Part shown: piece by piece, positions 7,175 to 30,903 of the stretch
How positions within the stretch are numbered: the first letter of the stretch is position 1
Layout of the letters: every line of letters begins with the position of its first letter
NCBI RefSeq assembly: GCF_036227605.1
Contig: NZ_CP109487.1
Location: 7,439,501 to 7,503,500 of the forward strand
Direction: 5' to 3'
Length of the DNA: 64,000 nucleotides
DNA from: Streptomyces sp. NBC_01439
GTDB lineage: Bacteria > Actinomycetota > Actinomycetes > Streptomycetales > Streptomycetaceae
Made by a program: the position numbers and the translations under genes
Notes under the pieces: generated by a model
What the model was told of the DNA's origin: nothing
The model's input: only the letters and a program-made list of their open reading frames with translations
Database searches by the model: none

Positions 7175-7535
7175 CGGTGGTTCCCCAGATGTCGTAGAGC
7201 CGTACTTCGAGGACGGCGAGCACGACGGCGCCGGCGGCCACCGTGATCGATCCCCACTTGGTCCGCTCGCTCAGCGAGAGCACCCCGGCGGCCGGGACCG
7301 CGGCGAACGCGCCCACCAGGTAAGCCACGAAGATCACCGTGCCCTCGTCGGGCTTCTCGCCCTGGGCCAGCTTGACCAGGCCGATCACCAGCTGCGCCAG
7401 GACCAGCACGGTCACGACGGCCATGCCGATGAAGTGCCAGTCCTTGGTCGGCTGGTCCCGCCATGCGGCGTGGCCGCACCAGGCGGCGAGGGCGAGTGCG
7501 GCCACGCCGATGGCGACCGTCAGGGCGTCGAGCAT
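7167..7535 (-). CDS. Four-TM integral membrane protein of unknown function
   Basis: A 122-residue protein with hydrophobic segments near residues 3-25, 36-60, 66-88 and 96-112. It is the first gene of a two-gene minus-strand unit and overlaps the next gene by 8 bp. A short conserved-looking loop, RDQPTKDWHF, separates TM1 and TM2. No functional motif was recognised. Confidence 0.75.
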   Translation of the reverse strand: MLDALTVAIGVAALALAAWCGHAAWRDQPTKDWHFIGMAVVTVLVLAQLVIGLVKLAQGEKPDEGTVIFVAYLVGAFAAVPAAGVLSLSERTKWGSITVAAGAVVLAVLEVRLYDIWGTTGA

Positions 7536-7837
7536 GCAGCGAGGGTATTACGGGCCATAAGACCCGGTGCGCGCACCCCTGTCTCCCGGAAGCCCGCGCA
7601 CGGCCCGCGCACGGCCCGCGCCGCACCCGCGCTCCACCCGTGCGCCGCACCCGCGCGCTGTCCTCGTGCACGGCGCGGCGACCGTGGTCTTGACCACAGC
7701 GGGCCGGGTCGCCGCACTCCGGACCGGGCGGGCCGGACGGCCCCGGCATGCCGCGTCGGCGCAGGTCGGCGGCGGGGACTCGGCCTCGGACGGGAGGGGT
7801 GGCCTTGACCGGTGTCGTCCGGTATGTGGTCGAAATG
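7536..7837. other. Non-coding GC-rich intergenic stretch
   Basis: No gene is seen here. It lies between the divergent membrane-protein pair and the metNIQ leader region. It includes a tandem repeat of CCCGCGCACGG around 7600-7630, and long GC-only runs that create spurious open frames in several phases. Confidence 0.5.
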
Positions 7838-7854
7838 CGTCCGCTATTCGGACG
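7838..7854 (+). promoter_or_regulatory. Inverted repeat just upstream of the met leader promoter (candidate operator)
   Basis: CGTCCG (7838-7843) and CGGACG (7849-7854) form a perfect 6-bp inverted repeat around CTATT. It ends three bases before the proposed -35 of the leader transcript, a suitable place for an activator or repressor. The cognate regulator is unknown. Confidence 0.35.
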
Positions 7855-7857
7855 TCT

Positions 7858-7888
7858 TTGATCGGTCAGGGGATACGTCTGCTTTACT
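7858..7888 (+). promoter_or_regulatory. Promoter for the leaderless met leader peptide
   Basis: A -35-like TTGATC (7858-7863) and a -10-like TTTACT (7883-7888), 19 nt apart. The -10 ends seven nt before the ATG at 7896, which places transcription start on the start codon. There is no ribosome-binding site before that ATG. Confidence 0.45.
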
Positions 7889-7895
7889 GGGGCCC

Positions 7896-7982
7896 ATGAC
7901 CACGACGAGCAGCCGCACCCTTGCGACCGAGGCGACGATGACGCCCGGTGCTCGTTGTATGTGTCGAATGTGCGCCTTCTGA
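7896..7982 (+). CDS. Cys/Met-rich leader peptide upstream of metNIQ (28 aa)
   Basis: A 28-codon ORF starting MTTTSSRTL and ending CMCRMCAF, that is, three Cys and two Met codons in the last eight before the stop. It begins exactly where a leaderless transcript would start, and lies about 200 nt before metN. Clustered codons for the pathway's amino acids at the end of a short upstream ORF are the hallmark of ribosome-mediated attenuation. Cysteine-coding leaderless sORFs are known as attenuators in mycobacteria. Here Cys/Met starvation would stall ribosomes and change folding of the downstream leader RNA, controlling a methionine importer. The ORF is plain; the mechanism is inferred. Confidence 0.6.
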   Translation: MTTTSSRTLATEATMTPGARCMCRMCAF

Positions 7983-8085
7983 GGGCCCCTTCCTGAGCCT
8001 CGCGCCCCGAAGCGAGACCAGCCGCGCCACCACGTCACCAGCTGATGAACAGCACGGCTCGCTCCTGCCCCGCGCACGTGTCGAC

Positions 8086-8104
8086 ACCGTCATTTTCTGA
8101 CGGT
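8086..8104 (+). promoter_or_regulatory. Hairpin in the metNIQ leader (candidate attenuator)
   Basis: ACCGTCA (8086-8092) and TGACGGT (8098-8104) form a perfect 7-bp stem with a TTTTC loop, 104 nt after the leader-peptide stop and 82 nt before metN. There is no strong T tract after it, so Rho or translation effects are as likely as intrinsic termination. A second, weaker stem, CTCGC/GCGAG, lies near 7997-8014. Confidence 0.35.
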
Positions 8105-8185
8105 TCGTCCCGTATCGCGTCCCCAGATTGTTTGCCCCGTGCCGGCAGCCCGCTGCGCCGCGCACTCGACAGCGACGGAAATCCT

Positions 8186-9232
8186 GTGATCACCACATCA
8201 GGCCTCACGAAGGTCTACCAGTCCCGTGGCCGCGAGGTCACCGCCCTGGACGGCGTCGATCTCCACGTCCGCGAGGGCGAGGTCTACGGAGTCATCGGCC
8301 AGAGCGGCGCAGGCAAATCCTCCCTGATCCGCTGCGTCAACCTGCTGGAGCGCCCCACCACCGGCACGGTGACCGTGGACGGCGTCGACCTCACCGCCCT
8401 CGCCGGCCGCGGCCGCCGCGCGGGCAAGGAGCTCCGCCAGGCCCGCAGCCGCATCGGCATGGTCTTCCAGCACTTCAACCTGCTGTCCTCGCGCACCGTC
8501 CAGGCCAACGTCGAGCTGCCCCTGGAGATCCTCGGCATCTCCGGCCGCGAGCGCTCCCGCAAGGCCCTCGAACTCCTCGACCTGGTCGGCCTCGCCGACA
8601 AGGCCAAGGCCTACCCGACCCAGCTCTCCGGCGGCCAGAAGCAGCGCGTCGGCATCGCCCGCGCCCTGGCCGGCGATCCCAAGGTGCTGCTGTCCGACGA
8701 GGCCACCAGCGCCCTGGACCCCGAGACCACCCGCTCCGTCCTCGGGCTGCTGCGCGACCTCAACCAGCAGCTCGGCCTCACCGTGCTGCTCATCACGCAC
8801 GAGATGGACGTGGTCAAGACCGTCTGCGACTCGGCCGCCCTGATGAAGAACGGCCGGATCATCGAGTCCGGCACCGTCGCCGAACTCCTCGCCACCCCCG
8901 GCTCCGAGCTCGCCGGCGAACTCTTCCCGGTCACCGGCACCGCCACCGGCCCCGACCGCACGGTCGTCGACGTCACCTTCCACGGCGAAGCCGCCGTCCG
9001 GCCGGTCATCTCGCAGCTCTCGCGCACGTACAACATCGACATCTCGATCCTCGGCGCCGCGATGGACACCGTCGCGGGCCGGCAGATCGGCCGCATGCGC
9101 ATCGAACTGCCCGGCGGTTACGAGGACAACGTCGTGCCGGTCGGCTTCCTGCGCGAGCAGGGCCTCCAGGTCGACGTCATCGACGAGATCGACAACGAAC
9201 TGGCCGAGCTGGTCAAGGACGGTGCCAAGTGA
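8186..9232 (+). CDS. metN: Methionine ABC transporter ATP-binding protein
   Basis: A 348-residue ATPase that powers uptake of D/L-methionine. Walker A is GQSGAGKS (residues 38-45), the signature LSGGQKQR begins near residue 147, Walker B is VLLSDEAT (near 166, with Ser where Cys is common), and a switch His lies in LLITHEMD. The last ~80 residues match the NIL/ACT-like methionine-sensing domain that gives trans-inhibition in MetN. GTG at 8186 gives the family length and follows a weak GGAAA; an upstream in-frame ATG (8045) lies inside the structured leader and is rejected. The stop overlaps the metI start. Confidence 0.93.
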   Translation: MITTSGLTKVYQSRGREVTALDGVDLHVREGEVYGVIGQSGAGKSSLIRCVNLLERPTTGTVTVDGVDLTALAGRGRRAGKELRQARSRIGMVFQHFNLLSSRTVQANVELPLEILGISGRERSRKALELLDLVGLADKAKAYPTQLSGGQKQRVGIARALAGDPKVLLSDEATSALDPETTRSVLGLLRDLNQQLGLTVLLITHEMDVVKTVCDSAALMKNGRIIESGTVAELLATPGSELAGELFPVTGTATGPDRTVVDVTFHGEAAVRPVISQLSRTYNIDISILGAAMDTVAGRQIGRMRIELPGGYEDNVVPVGFLREQGLQVDVIDEIDNELAELVKDGAK

Positions 9233-9897
9233 CCTGGTCCGAAATGCAGCCCCTGCTCACCCAGGGCACCTACGACACCCTCTACATGGTGCTGTGGTCC
9301 ACCCTGGTGACCGTGCTCGGCGGCCTGCCCATCGGCATCCTGCTGGTCCTCACCGACAAGGGCGGCCTCCTGCAGAACCAGCCGCTCAACAAGGTCCTCG
9401 GCGTGATCGTGAACATAGGCCGCTCGCTGCCGTTCATCATCCTGCTGATCTTCCTGATCCCGGTCACCACGGCGGTCGTCGGCACCTTCATCGGCCCCAC
9501 CGCCATGATCGTCCCGCTCGCCATCGGCGCCGTCCCCTTCTTCGCCCGGCTCGTCGAGACCGCCGTCCGCGAGGTGGACCACGGTCTCATCGAGGCCGTC
9601 GAGTCCATGGGCGGCGGCATCCCCACCCTGGTCGGCAAGGTGCTCCTCCCGCAGGCCCTGCCCTCCCTGGTCGCCGGTGTCACCACCACCGTCATCACCC
9701 TTGTCGGCTACTCGGCCATGGCCGGCGCCGTCGGCGGCGAAGGACTGGGCTCCAAGGCCATCACCTACGGCTTCCAGCGCTTCGAGACCGGCTTCATGAT
9801 CGCCACCGTCGTGGTCCTGATCGCCCTCGTCACGGTGATCCAGCTGCTCGGCGACGGGGCGGTCCGCCTCCTCGCCCGCCGCGGCAGGGCCGCCTGA
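9229..9897 (+). CDS. metI: Methionine ABC transporter permease
   Basis: A 222-residue permease with five hydrophobic segments. The EAA loop, EAVESMGGGIPTLVGKVLLP (about residues 122-141), docks onto MetN. Start is the GTG of GTGA, overlapping the metN stop by 4 nt, so translation is coupled. Length and the motifs GRSLPFIILL and GGEGLGSKAI fit the MetI family. Confidence 0.93.
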   Translation: MTWSEMQPLLTQGTYDTLYMVLWSTLVTVLGGLPIGILLVLTDKGGLLQNQPLNKVLGVIVNIGRSLPFIILLIFLIPVTTAVVGTFIGPTAMIVPLAIGAVPFFARLVETAVREVDHGLIEAVESMGGGIPTLVGKVLLPQALPSLVAGVTTTVITLVGYSAMAGAVGGEGLGSKAITYGFQRFETGFMIATVVVLIALVTVIQLLGDGAVRLLARRGRAA

Positions 9898-9991: not shown

Positions 9992-10858
9992 GTGCGTAAG
10001 AACATCAAGCTCACCGCCCTCGCCGCCACGGCCACCGCGCTCGCCCTCGGCCTCACCGCCTGCGGCAGCTCCTCGGACCCGTCGTCGGCGAAGGCCGACG
10101 GCGGCAAGGCCGACGAGAGCAAGCCCCTCGTCATAGCCGCCTCCCCGAGCCCCCACGCCGACGTCCTGAACTTCGTCAAGGACAAGCTCGCGGCCAAGGA
10201 AGGCCTCAAGCTGGAGGTCAAGGAGTTCACGGACTACGTCCTGCCGAACACCGCCACCGAGCAGGGCCAGGTCGACGGCAACTACTTCCAGCACAAGCCG
10301 TACCTCGACGACTTCAACAAGAAGAACAACACCCACGTCGTGCCCGTCGCGAACGTGCACCTGGAGCCCCTCGGCCTCTACTCCAAGAAGATCAAGGCCA
10401 TCGGTGACATCAAGGCCGGCCAGACCATCGCCGTCCCCAACGACACCACCAACGAGGGCCGCGCGCTCCAGCTGCTCGCCGCCAACAACCTGATCACCCT
10501 CAAGGAGGGTGTCGGCACCAGCGCCAAGCTGTCCGACATCACCGACAAGAAGGGCCTGGAGTTCAAGGAGCTGGAGGCCGCCACGGTCCCGCGCGCCCTG
10601 AACGACGTGGACGCCGCGGTCATCAACGGCAACTACGCCCTCGAGGCCAAGCTCTCGCCCGCCAAGGACGCGCTGATCCTCGAGAAGGCCGAGGGCAACC
10701 CCTACGCCAACTTCCTCGCGGTCAAGGACGGCAACCAGAACGACCCGCGGATCCAGAAGCTGGCCAAGCTGCTGAACTCCGACGAGGTCAAGAAGTTCAT
10801 CGAGGAGAAGTACCAGGGCTCGGTCATTCCGGCCTTCGGCGCCCCGGCCGCTTCCTGA
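9992..10858 (+). CDS. metQ: Methionine-binding lipoprotein (NlpA/MetQ family)
   Basis: A 288-residue lipid-anchored substrate-binding protein. The signal peptide ends in the lipobox LTAC (residues 21-24; Cys24 is the lipidated residue), followed by a Ser/Asp-rich tether. The core VIAASPSPHADVL, EVKEFTDYVLPNTA, QGQVDGNYFQHKPYL and IAVPNDTTNEGRALQLL are signature stretches of MetQ proteins. GTG at 9992 follows AAAGG at about 9 nt. It is 94 nt after metI in the same operon, which closes with a strong hairpin terminator. Confidence 0.93.
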   Translation: MRKNIKLTALAATATALALGLTACGSSSDPSSAKADGGKADESKPLVIAASPSPHADVLNFVKDKLAAKEGLKLEVKEFTDYVLPNTATEQGQVDGNYFQHKPYLDDFNKKNNTHVVPVANVHLEPLGLYSKKIKAIGDIKAGQTIAVPNDTTNEGRALQLLAANNLITLKEGVGTSAKLSDITDKKGLEFKELEAATVPRALNDVDAAVINGNYALEAKLSPAKDALILEKAEGNPYANFLAVKDGNQNDPRIQKLAKLLNSDEVKKFIEEKYQGSVIPAFGAPAAS

Positions 10859-21398: not shown

Positions 21399-21473
21399 TG
21401 GTGCGCGATACTGGGATTGAACCAGTGACCTCTTCCGTGTCAGGGAAGCGCTCTCCCGCTGAGCTAATCGCGC
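21399..21473 (-). tRNA. tRNA-Val(GAC), copy A, CCA encoded
   Basis: The cloverleaf is complete on the minus strand: acceptor GCGCGAT/ATCGCGC, anticodon stem CTTCC/GGAAG with loop CTGACAC (anticodon GAC, reads GTC), T arm with GGTTCAATCCC. The discriminator A is at 21402 and CCA is encoded (21399-21401). It is the last gene of the five-tRNA operon. Confidence 0.95.
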
Positions 21474-21525
21474 GGGCTCCGCAGCTCGAAAGCCGCAGGT
21501 GCAACAAGGTGGTGCAGGTGCTGCG

Positions 21526-21597
21526 TGCGCGATACTGGGATTGAACCAGTGACCTCTTCCGTGTCAGGGAAGCGCTCTCCCGCTGAGCTAATCGCGC
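21526..21597 (-). tRNA. tRNA-Val(GAC), copy B
   Basis: Identical to copy A in all paired and loop positions, with acceptor GCGCGAT/ATCGCGC and discriminator A. The 3' CCA is not encoded here. A 52-nt spacer separates the mature parts of copies A and B. Confidence 0.95.
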
Positions 21598-21616
21598 GGG
21601 GATCCTTGCGGATCAG

Positions 21617-21688
21617 TGGACGATACTGGGATTGAACCAGTGACCTCTTCCGTGTCAGGGAAGCGCTCTCCCGCTGAGCTAATCGTCC
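21617..21688 (-). tRNA. tRNA-Val(GAC), copy C (variant acceptor stem)
   Basis: The body is identical to copies A and B, but the acceptor is GGACGAT/ATCGTCC. Two base pairs are changed with both partners, so pairing is kept. CCA is not encoded. Confidence 0.95.
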
Positions 21689-21689
21689 T

Positions 21690-21763
21690 TGGAGGTGGAG
21701 ACGGGATTTGAACCCGTGTAGACGGCTTTGCAGGCCGTTGCCTCGCCTCTCGGCCACTCCACC
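21690..21763 (-). tRNA. tRNA-Cys(GCA), CCA encoded
   Basis: Acceptor GGTGGAG/CTCCACC, anticodon stem ACGGC/GCCGT with loop CTGCAAA (anticodon GCA), discriminator T (U in RNA) and encoded CCA. It lies directly before the first Val copy in transcription order. Confidence 0.95.
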
Positions 21764-21802
21764 ATGGAGCTGCAGGGGTTCTCGGGAAGATCCCCCACTT
21801 CG

Positions 21803-21875
<73 letters not shown>

Positions 21876-28210: not shown

Positions 28211-28282
28211 GGGCGATTAGCTCAGTGGGAGAGCACTTCGTTCACACCGAAGGGGTCACTGGTTCGAACCCAGTATCGCCCA
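28211..28282 (+). tRNA. tRNA-Val(CAC), copy 1
   Basis: Acceptor GGGCGAT/ATCGCCC, anticodon stem CTTCG/CGAAG with loop TTCACAC (anticodon CAC, reads GTG), T arm GGTTCGAACCC, discriminator A. CCA is not encoded. A 17-bp hairpin terminator follows. Confidence 0.95.
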
Positions 28283-30831: not shown

Positions 30832-30903
30832 GGGCGATTAGCTCAGCGGGAGAGCACTTCGTTCACACCGAAGGGGTCACTGGTTCGATCCCAGTATCGC
30901 CCA
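30832..30903 (+). tRNA. tRNA-Val(CAC), copy 2
   Basis: Same cloverleaf as the copy at 28211, differing only at one D-loop base and one T-loop base (GGTTCGATCCC). Anticodon CAC. CCA is not encoded. A hairpin terminator follows. Confidence 0.95.

Follow-up and report, generated by a model that had tools for sequence, protein, structure and literature searches.

A conserved, structured Cys/Met-tailed leader ORF upstream of metNIQ in Streptomyces as a candidate ribosome-read attenuator

The leader ORF, its promoter and its occurrence

The window, by which we mean the whole 64,000-nt stretch of Streptomyces sp. NBC_01439 DNA analysed here, carries a methionine importer operon preceded by a short ORF with a Cys/Met tail, and the locus raises the question of whether this ORF is translated and whether it controls the importer. 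An earlier note on this DNA had described a 28-codon ORF ending in CMCRMCAF, and this ORF is present at 7896–7982 on the plus strand, on which all leader and operon features below lie except the palindrome, which has no strand. Its translation is MTTTSSRTLATEATMTPGARCMCRMCAF*, the ORF list giving the frame from an upstream GTG. It is followed by metN (8186–9232, GTG start at 8186), which encodes the importer ATPase with a NIL domain (Pfam ABC_tran and NIL), by metI (9229–9897), encoding the permease (BPD_transp_1 domain), and by metQ (9992–10858), encoding an NlpA-family lipoprotein (Pfam PF03180, 3.8e-92). NCBIfam scores stayed under their cut-offs for metN (top match TIGR02314, 372.8 bits; cut-off 499.7), for metI (top match NF008049, 202 of 212 bits) and for metQ (MetQ models).

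An extended −10 promoter element, TGC-TTTACT, was located at 7880–7888; its box TTTACT (7883–7888) stands 7 nt ahead of the ATG, as the earlier note had read it. Among relatives, all of 165 distinct ORFs have a −10 box 6–7 nt ahead of their ATG, as the finder itself demanded, and it reads TTTACT in 153. TGn preceded the box in 200 of 203 distinct elements. The ORF is an orthologue of S. lividans metL, the start of which is reported as leaderless (PMC8079986). The promoter layout and this orthologue start lend the leaderless idea partial support, and the leader mRNA probably begins right at the start codon.

We searched for the element with a covariance model built from 34 sequences, several of them out of genomes that were later searched. 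At E ≤ 0.01, it was detected in 191 of 199 Streptomyces genomes, with one copy each and two in one genome, and in 42 of 394 genomes (3 of 137 genera) of the class. For the family, searched at E ≤ 0.1, 94 of 150 genomes had matches, in 13 of 17 genera, and some few of these matches were weak or partial. A second family gave 6 matched genomes out of 100, one with a partial match, and these fell in 3 of 68 genera; judged by its taxonomy, the Actinomadura locus L046 probably belongs to this family. MetN homology was present in 223 of 224 loci, and in 205 of 206 when the window and the 17 loci fetched through MetN (L031–L047) were left out; in the exception, L193, the sequence ends shortly past the element. 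Two further loci (L237 and L242) have a truncated or decayed metN and an intact leader element. A plasmid search returned nothing.

Nine Streptomyces genomes, eight from the set of 199 and one from the class-wide search, had no model match: six of them had no MetQ at E ≤ 1e-20 (G079, which is 78% complete, among them), and three had MetQ at 54–65% identity. MetQ was also present in four of eight examined family genomes of other genera without a match. Upstream of metN, three of these seven MetQ-carrying genomes (L347, L349 and L351) have a leader of this kind that has diverged; it reads MFTTAH...CRMCGC after a TTTAAT box in L349 and L351. L346 has metN and the 3' part of the leader alone (RMCRMCA-stop), the promoter and 5' half being missing; the contigs of L348 and L352 break off at metN or within it, and for L350 the search beside MetQ revealed no MetN. 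Because divergent leaders were found upstream of metN in unmatched genomes, the missing matches partly reflect a lack of model sensitivity.

Reading frame, RNA structure and tail codons

The codon pattern CMCRMCAF-stop occurred in 70 of 392 Streptomyces genomes, with identical codons in 68 of the 70, and the backward-read pattern used as a control occurred 0 times among the matches listed. Over 118 distinct 28-codon elements, the majority-base frequency was 1.00 in the start codon, 0.90 in codons 2–20, 0.93 in codons 21–26 and 0.84 in the stop codon, whereas two stretches upstream of the ORF scored 0.43–0.44 and sequence far downstream 0.48; the lack of conservation that would have refuted the earlier note did not occur.

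For the frame test, the promoter served to anchor the start and the nucleotide string CGAATG to anchor the end, which left the frame itself free. The ATG-to-CGAATG distance took 13 values between 63 and 99 nt and was divisible by three in all of the 181 distinct elements; these elements are related to each other and are not independent trials. As a control, the spacing from the stop to the downstream hairpin P4 took 19 values, spread 7/7/5 over the residue classes modulo 3 (26/105/26 elements). The rows were drawn from 224 loci, of which 26 failed the strict promoter/P4 anchor and 17 were duplicates; with looser anchors, 25 of these 26 were in frame, and L208 was without CGAATG. Most other counts refer to 203 distinct elements, which leave out L193, L047, L208, L237 and L242 (decayed metN) as well as duplicates. 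These results indicate that translation of the leader ORF is under selection, and the translated Cys/Met-tailed peptide proposed in the earlier note is supported by the frame kept over so many distances.

The ORF is also predicted to fold. In the minimum free energy fold, P1 joins a 5' arm at 7902–7910 (ACGACGAGC) to a 3' arm at 7950–7958 (GCTCGTTGT), the last codon of which is Cys codon 21, and encloses the hairpins P2 (7914–7925, CGCA-CCCT-TGCG) and P3 (7926–7949, ACCGaGGCG ... CGCCCGGT); the z-score for the whole 135 nt was −2.05. Both P1 arms and P3 show compensatory changes, the P3 loop varies freely, and the closing pair of P2 changes from A-T to C-G in 12 sequences. Covariation was assessed on 153 distinct 5' domains in a MAFFT alignment blind to structure, against 300 shuffles, which preserve column make-up and not relatedness, and against partners slid by 1–3 columns. 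Paired cells reached 87.3%, compared with a mean of 82.1 and a maximum of 82.9 in shuffles and 27–43% for slid partners, and double-change cells numbered 120 over the 153 sequences, compared with a shuffle maximum of 42 and 51–89 for slid partners. Two other counts gave no support: the 16 pairs with a double change were equalled by shuffles (maximum 16) and slid partners (13–18), and the 45 extra pair types fell inside the slid-partner range of 37–48. At P1 pair 14–56, G-C is replaced by A-U in 20 sequences, with Ser5 changed to Asn in 19 and Ala19 altered, mostly to Val; because all 20 come from other genera, these changes may be few events. Backed by the compensatory changes, most of the ORF appears to be a conserved three-way junction, and the alignments argue that the same stretch of about 90 nt is constrained twice over, by its reading frame and by its three-way-junction fold. 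Members from the second family differ in sequence, and where folded (e.g. L205 and L206) they have a long helix near the 5' end.

Beyond the stop codon, a pattern search in relatives identified the hairpin P4 (7999–8016, CTCGC-GCCCCGAA-GCGAG). The search pattern, which prescribed a GCCC(C)-GAA-type loop, picked it up in 182 of 203 distinct elements, with the loop GCCCCGAA in 177; in the stem, A-U replaces G-C in 2 elements and C-G replaces U-A in 4, and the hairpin is also present in the second family (L201–L206). RNAalifold's fold of the first alignment, with the tail paired to P4, was not adopted. Further downstream, the earlier note had pointed to a hairpin at 8086–8104. The 7-bp stem exists (ACCGTCA/TGACGGT), but its standing as a functional part did not hold up: it is present in 1 of 203 distinct elements, the window's own, and perfect 7-bp hairpins in the same part of the leader are not commoner than in shuffles (10 of 203 compared with a mean of 11.8).

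The presumed control codons are codons 21–26, Cys-Met-Cys-Arg(CGA)-Met-Cys (7956–7973). Among 91 distinct nine-residue tails, Cys made up about 28% of residues compared with 2.8% in the remaining peptide, and Met about 17% compared with 3.4%, the counts of tail Met and of CGA/CGC being conditioned on the CG[AC]ATG anchor, which demanded one of each. TGT and CGA predominate in the tails, and both are rare in window genes. TGT accounted for 366 of 519 tail Cys codons in the 203 elements and for 6 of 85 in 30 predicted window genes, and CGA for 201 of 368 tail Arg codons compared with 20 of 923; over 103 distinct tails, the values were 168/247 and 102/225, respectively. The Arg ahead of the final Met was encoded by CGA in 161 of 165 distinct ORFs and by CGC in 4, the sole two codons that the anchor permitted. 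Cys preceded this Arg in 130 of 165 and followed the Met in 137 of 165, and the stop, counted after the Met, lay 3 codons away in 147 and 2 codons away in 18. The number of tail Cys ranged from 1 to 5, with a single Cys in 13 of the 91 distinct tails, and whole Cys, Met or Arg codons extend the tail in several species. By these counts, constancy in the tail is highest at the Arg(CGA)-Met codons and not at Cys alone. This pair, the three-way junction within the ORF and a palindrome upstream of it had been overlooked in the earlier note. One Streptomyces locus, L208, has the tail RCRCCTCAR, in which Arg-Met is lost and four Cys are present; it is of use for separating Cys from Met sensing.

Proposed mechanism, output step and rival explanations

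With moderate confidence, we read the element as a ribosome-read attenuator of metNIQ that responds to Cys and/or Met. This reading starts from the selection on the frame and on the RNA structure, the composition of the tail, the place ahead of metN and the lack of an intrinsic terminator in a simple scan; that Cys and Met are the signals sensed we infer. Transcription would start at the A of the ATG, and a ribosome would load on the 5' AUG of the still-short RNA, entering before the P1–P3 junction closes. It would then melt the three-way junction and arrive at the Cys-Met-Cys-Arg-Met-Cys codons. When Cys-tRNA and/or Met-tRNA are scarce, the ribosome would pause and cover the P1 3' arm and the tail, and the importer would be expressed. 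When these tRNAs are plentiful, it would terminate a few codons on, P1–P3 and P4 would close, which may additionally keep further ribosomes off the 5' AUG, and metNIQ would be turned down, most likely through Rho acting on the naked C-rich leader.

Published expression data bear on this proposal. In S. coelicolor under oxidative stress, metN, metI and metQ were up 5.2-, 3.5- and 2.3-fold together with cysteine genes, as given in a table of HbpS-SenS-SenR-controlled genes (PMC4991794), a rise that a thiol-limited sensor would predict; the authors ascribe the response to SenR (PMC4991794). Counted against the attenuator reading are L208, with its Cys and without Arg-Met, and the single-Cys tails, which weaken the assignment of the sensed amino acid.

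The tail could instead act as an arrest peptide, its nascent C-R-M-C C-terminus near the stop stalling the ribosome on a small molecule (e.g. Met, SAM or a thiol) and not through tRNA charging. Such a peptide would suit the fixed position of Arg-Met before the stop while the N-terminal residues drift among relatives, and the variable number of tail Cys. However, the Arg codon itself is conserved, within the two codons that the anchor allowed, and TGT is preferred, which points to RNA or decoding speed; Arg-Met is lost in L208, and whole codons have been added to the tail in several species. We regard an arrest peptide as unlikely.

For the output step of the attenuator, we considered the leader between the stop codon and metN (7983–8185). 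It opens with a conserved GGGCCCC right after the stop (7983–7989; majority-base frequency 0.90 in the 118 28-codon elements) and is C-rich, G-poor and rut-like (C 84 and G 54 of 203 nt), which places it in the top 2% of 203-nt stretches of the window. Across 203 loci, post-stop leaders had mean C and G fractions of 0.452 and 0.288, with C exceeding G in 203 of 203, compared with just 88 of 203 upstream of the start, where such skew is absent. A simple scan of 7400–8500 found no terminator-like site on either strand. For S. lividans metL, the published account likewise mentions no typical terminator and calls termination unclear (PMC8079986). Because the leader is C-rich and G-poor and no intrinsic terminator emerged from the simple scan, Rho-dependent termination is our first choice, plausible though short of probable; some other step is possible, and control of RBS access is rather doubtful.

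No switching partner for the tail was found, which counts against the attenuator reading. Pairing with the mid-leader GCGCAC/GUCAC was persuasive by eye in a few loci and failed over the 203 elements, since tail:middle-leader duplexes (own, −23.46; cross, −23.28; shuffled, −25.33 kcal/mol) were no better than swapped ones and weaker than shuffles. A mycobacteria-like translational control would have the stalled ribosome stop the tail (UGUCGA-AU-GUGCGC) from pairing with GCGCACUCGACA, which lies shortly before the metN Shine-Dalgarno sequence. Tail:RBS complementarity was better than in shuffles in 164 of 203 elements, and Cys-coding leaderless sORFs of mycobacteria are reported to attenuate downstream translation (PMC9031893). 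Yet the pairing showed no covariation (own −22.80 compared with cross −22.71, the own partner being the better one in 111 of 203), was not seen by eye in the second family (L201–L206), and masking by a stalled ribosome left RBS accessibility unraised. In a random 100 of the 203 leaders, the opening energy of the metN start had a mean of 7.43 with masking compared with 6.79 free, and masking lowered it by more than 0.5 in 19 of the 100; in-silico folding of these leaders thus leaves RBS release by a stalled ribosome unsupported, and we consider this translational control improbable. Directly ahead of the metN start, CTCGACAGTGACGGA (in the window CTCGACAGCGACGGA, 8164–8180) is strongly conserved in Streptomyces, where it provides a weak Shine-Dalgarno sequence and may serve a further role.

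That the leader is a riboswitch, a metabolite-binding RNA in which the ORF is incidental, seems very unlikely. The three-way junction, the P4 loop common to the two families and the very high nucleotide conservation would fit it, but the frame, start, stop and Cys/Met/Arg tail are strictly kept, and none of 4227 Rfam families matched the leader. At the gathering score, Rfam detected tRNAs alone in the window and nothing in the leader or in the loci of six relatives, and a search including the SAM riboswitches found nothing in 7750–8230 at E up to 5. The tRNA genes of the window comprise five clustered at 21402–21875 on the minus strand and two single ones at 28211–28282 and 30832–30903.

Upstream of the promoter, the palindrome GTCC-N7-GGAC (GTCCGCTATTCGGAC, 7839–7853) has half-sites and spacing as in the published NdgR ChIP motif (PMC4340878). 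Of 203 distinct elements, 167 have an exact copy in the 110 nt preceding the ATG, at −56 to −59 in 128, at −66 to −68 in 36 and elsewhere in 3; a relaxed pattern added 18, and 18 had none. The background was 1 in 44,036 nt of post-ORF leader. The NdgR motif, as published, has CAC after GTC (GTCCAC), which the window site does not, so that the match is not full (PMC4340878), and naming NdgR as the owner of the palindrome would be a guess. RsrR was rejected, its motif being an 11-3-11 repeat unlike GTCC-N7-GGAC. At the sulfite reductase locus of the same genome (L297:625–764), a leader ORF, MNGAGIALVSRRHVDLGRMSSAICPAR, has an exact GTCC-N7-GGAC starting 56 nt before it, near the metL spacing. 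That a DNA-binding regulator at this palindrome is the main control of metNIQ, with a minor or constitutive leader, is highly improbable: the two preferred positions (164 of 203), the likeness to the NdgR motif and the site at the sulfite reductase leader would agree with it, but it leaves selection on the leader frame and structure unexplained, and SCO1559 is absent from the main text of the NdgR ChIP-seq paper (PMC4340878).

Relation to known leaders

Contrary to the earlier note, the attenuator idea is not novel, as metL of S. lividans TK24 (SLIV_29928) is already listed as a leaderless, methionine-dependent metNIQ attenuator (PMC8079986). The window has the same type of sequence ahead of the same operon and a near-identical peptide (MSTTSDRTPATEATTTPGARCMCRRMCAF in S. 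lividans; PMC8079986), and the peptide is identical to that of S. lividans in L178, L179 and L182. The published entry describes metL for one strain and notes several methionines and threonines (PMC8079986); to it we add the taxonomic distribution, the conserved fold and the Cys and Arg codons of the tail. Among the matches listed in a search of literature titles and abstract starts, no description of a Streptomyces metNIQ attenuator besides PMC8079986 was found.

What the present analysis adds is a conserved, structured and taxonomically bounded family of putative attenuators that does not score in the NCBI Cys-leader families. The Cys-rich leader families Ms5788A and Ms4527A, which by their names we take to be the mycobacterial polycysteine group, did not match the window peptide; even at E up to 10, NF042933, NF042934 and NF042936 recognised neither the window peptide nor those of two distant relatives, and the metL peptide matched no NCBI actinobacterial leader family. 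As positive controls, the L301 peptide scored 45.7 of 45 bits with NF042933 and 29.2 of 27 with NF042934, and the L312 peptide 38 of 27 with NF042934. These peptides come from short Cys-containing ORFs of the window's own genome (L301:1208–1297 and L312:1001–1108) that match NF042933 (Ms5788A) and/or NF042934 ('putative leader peptide'); one precedes a rhodanese-family match by about 200 nt and the other a cysK/M match by about 400 nt. Unlike the metL peptide, they carry a VDLCR motif and a second Cys. Around sulfur-gene homologues of this genome, 11 loci were scanned for leaderless ORFs with at least 3 Cys in the last ten residues, and none was found; a looser look at four of these loci revealed VDLCR-type ORFs in two. 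Since Rfam 15 gave no match, the element is a good candidate for a new RNA-family entry.

Like a classical trp-type attenuator, the element has a translated leader peptide enriched in candidate control codons; unlike it, no intrinsic terminator was found in the scan described above. It resembles the LEU element of actinobacterial leuA in combining a leader peptide with a conserved RNA structure and no obvious terminator (PMC1262725). In the LEU element, the codon run was proposed to pair with the Shine-Dalgarno box (PMC1262725), whereas here the three-way junction lies within the ORF and pairing with the RBS region is without covariation support. The 2005 survey of actinobacterial leaders, in its account of methionine operons, reports no conserved RNA structures before them (PMC1262725).

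Our more tentative proposal, which we hold to be possible and not probable, is a sulfur-amino-acid sensor of new build. Its ORF would be a conserved three-way junction enterable solely by the first, co-transcriptional ribosome on a leaderless mRNA, and its Cys/Arg(CGA)/Met tail near the stop would combine information on cysteine and methionine availability (or a signal from the nascent chain) to control an importer and not a biosynthetic operon, in two actinobacterial families. In the mycobacterial polycysteine attenuators, a stalled ribosome frees a sequestered downstream RBS. The element resembles them as a probably leaderless sORF with Cys codons before a sulfur operon (PMC9031893, PMC9094748), but its Cys codons take turns with Met and Arg codons, in the window as in most relatives, and form no consecutive run, the ORF is structured, and the operon serves transport and not synthesis. 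If the attenuator reading is true, it would offer a testable handle on the cysteine/methionine balance of Streptomyces, and ribosome-based cysteine control would extend from mycobacterial operons to Streptomyces methionine import through a different leader family and build.
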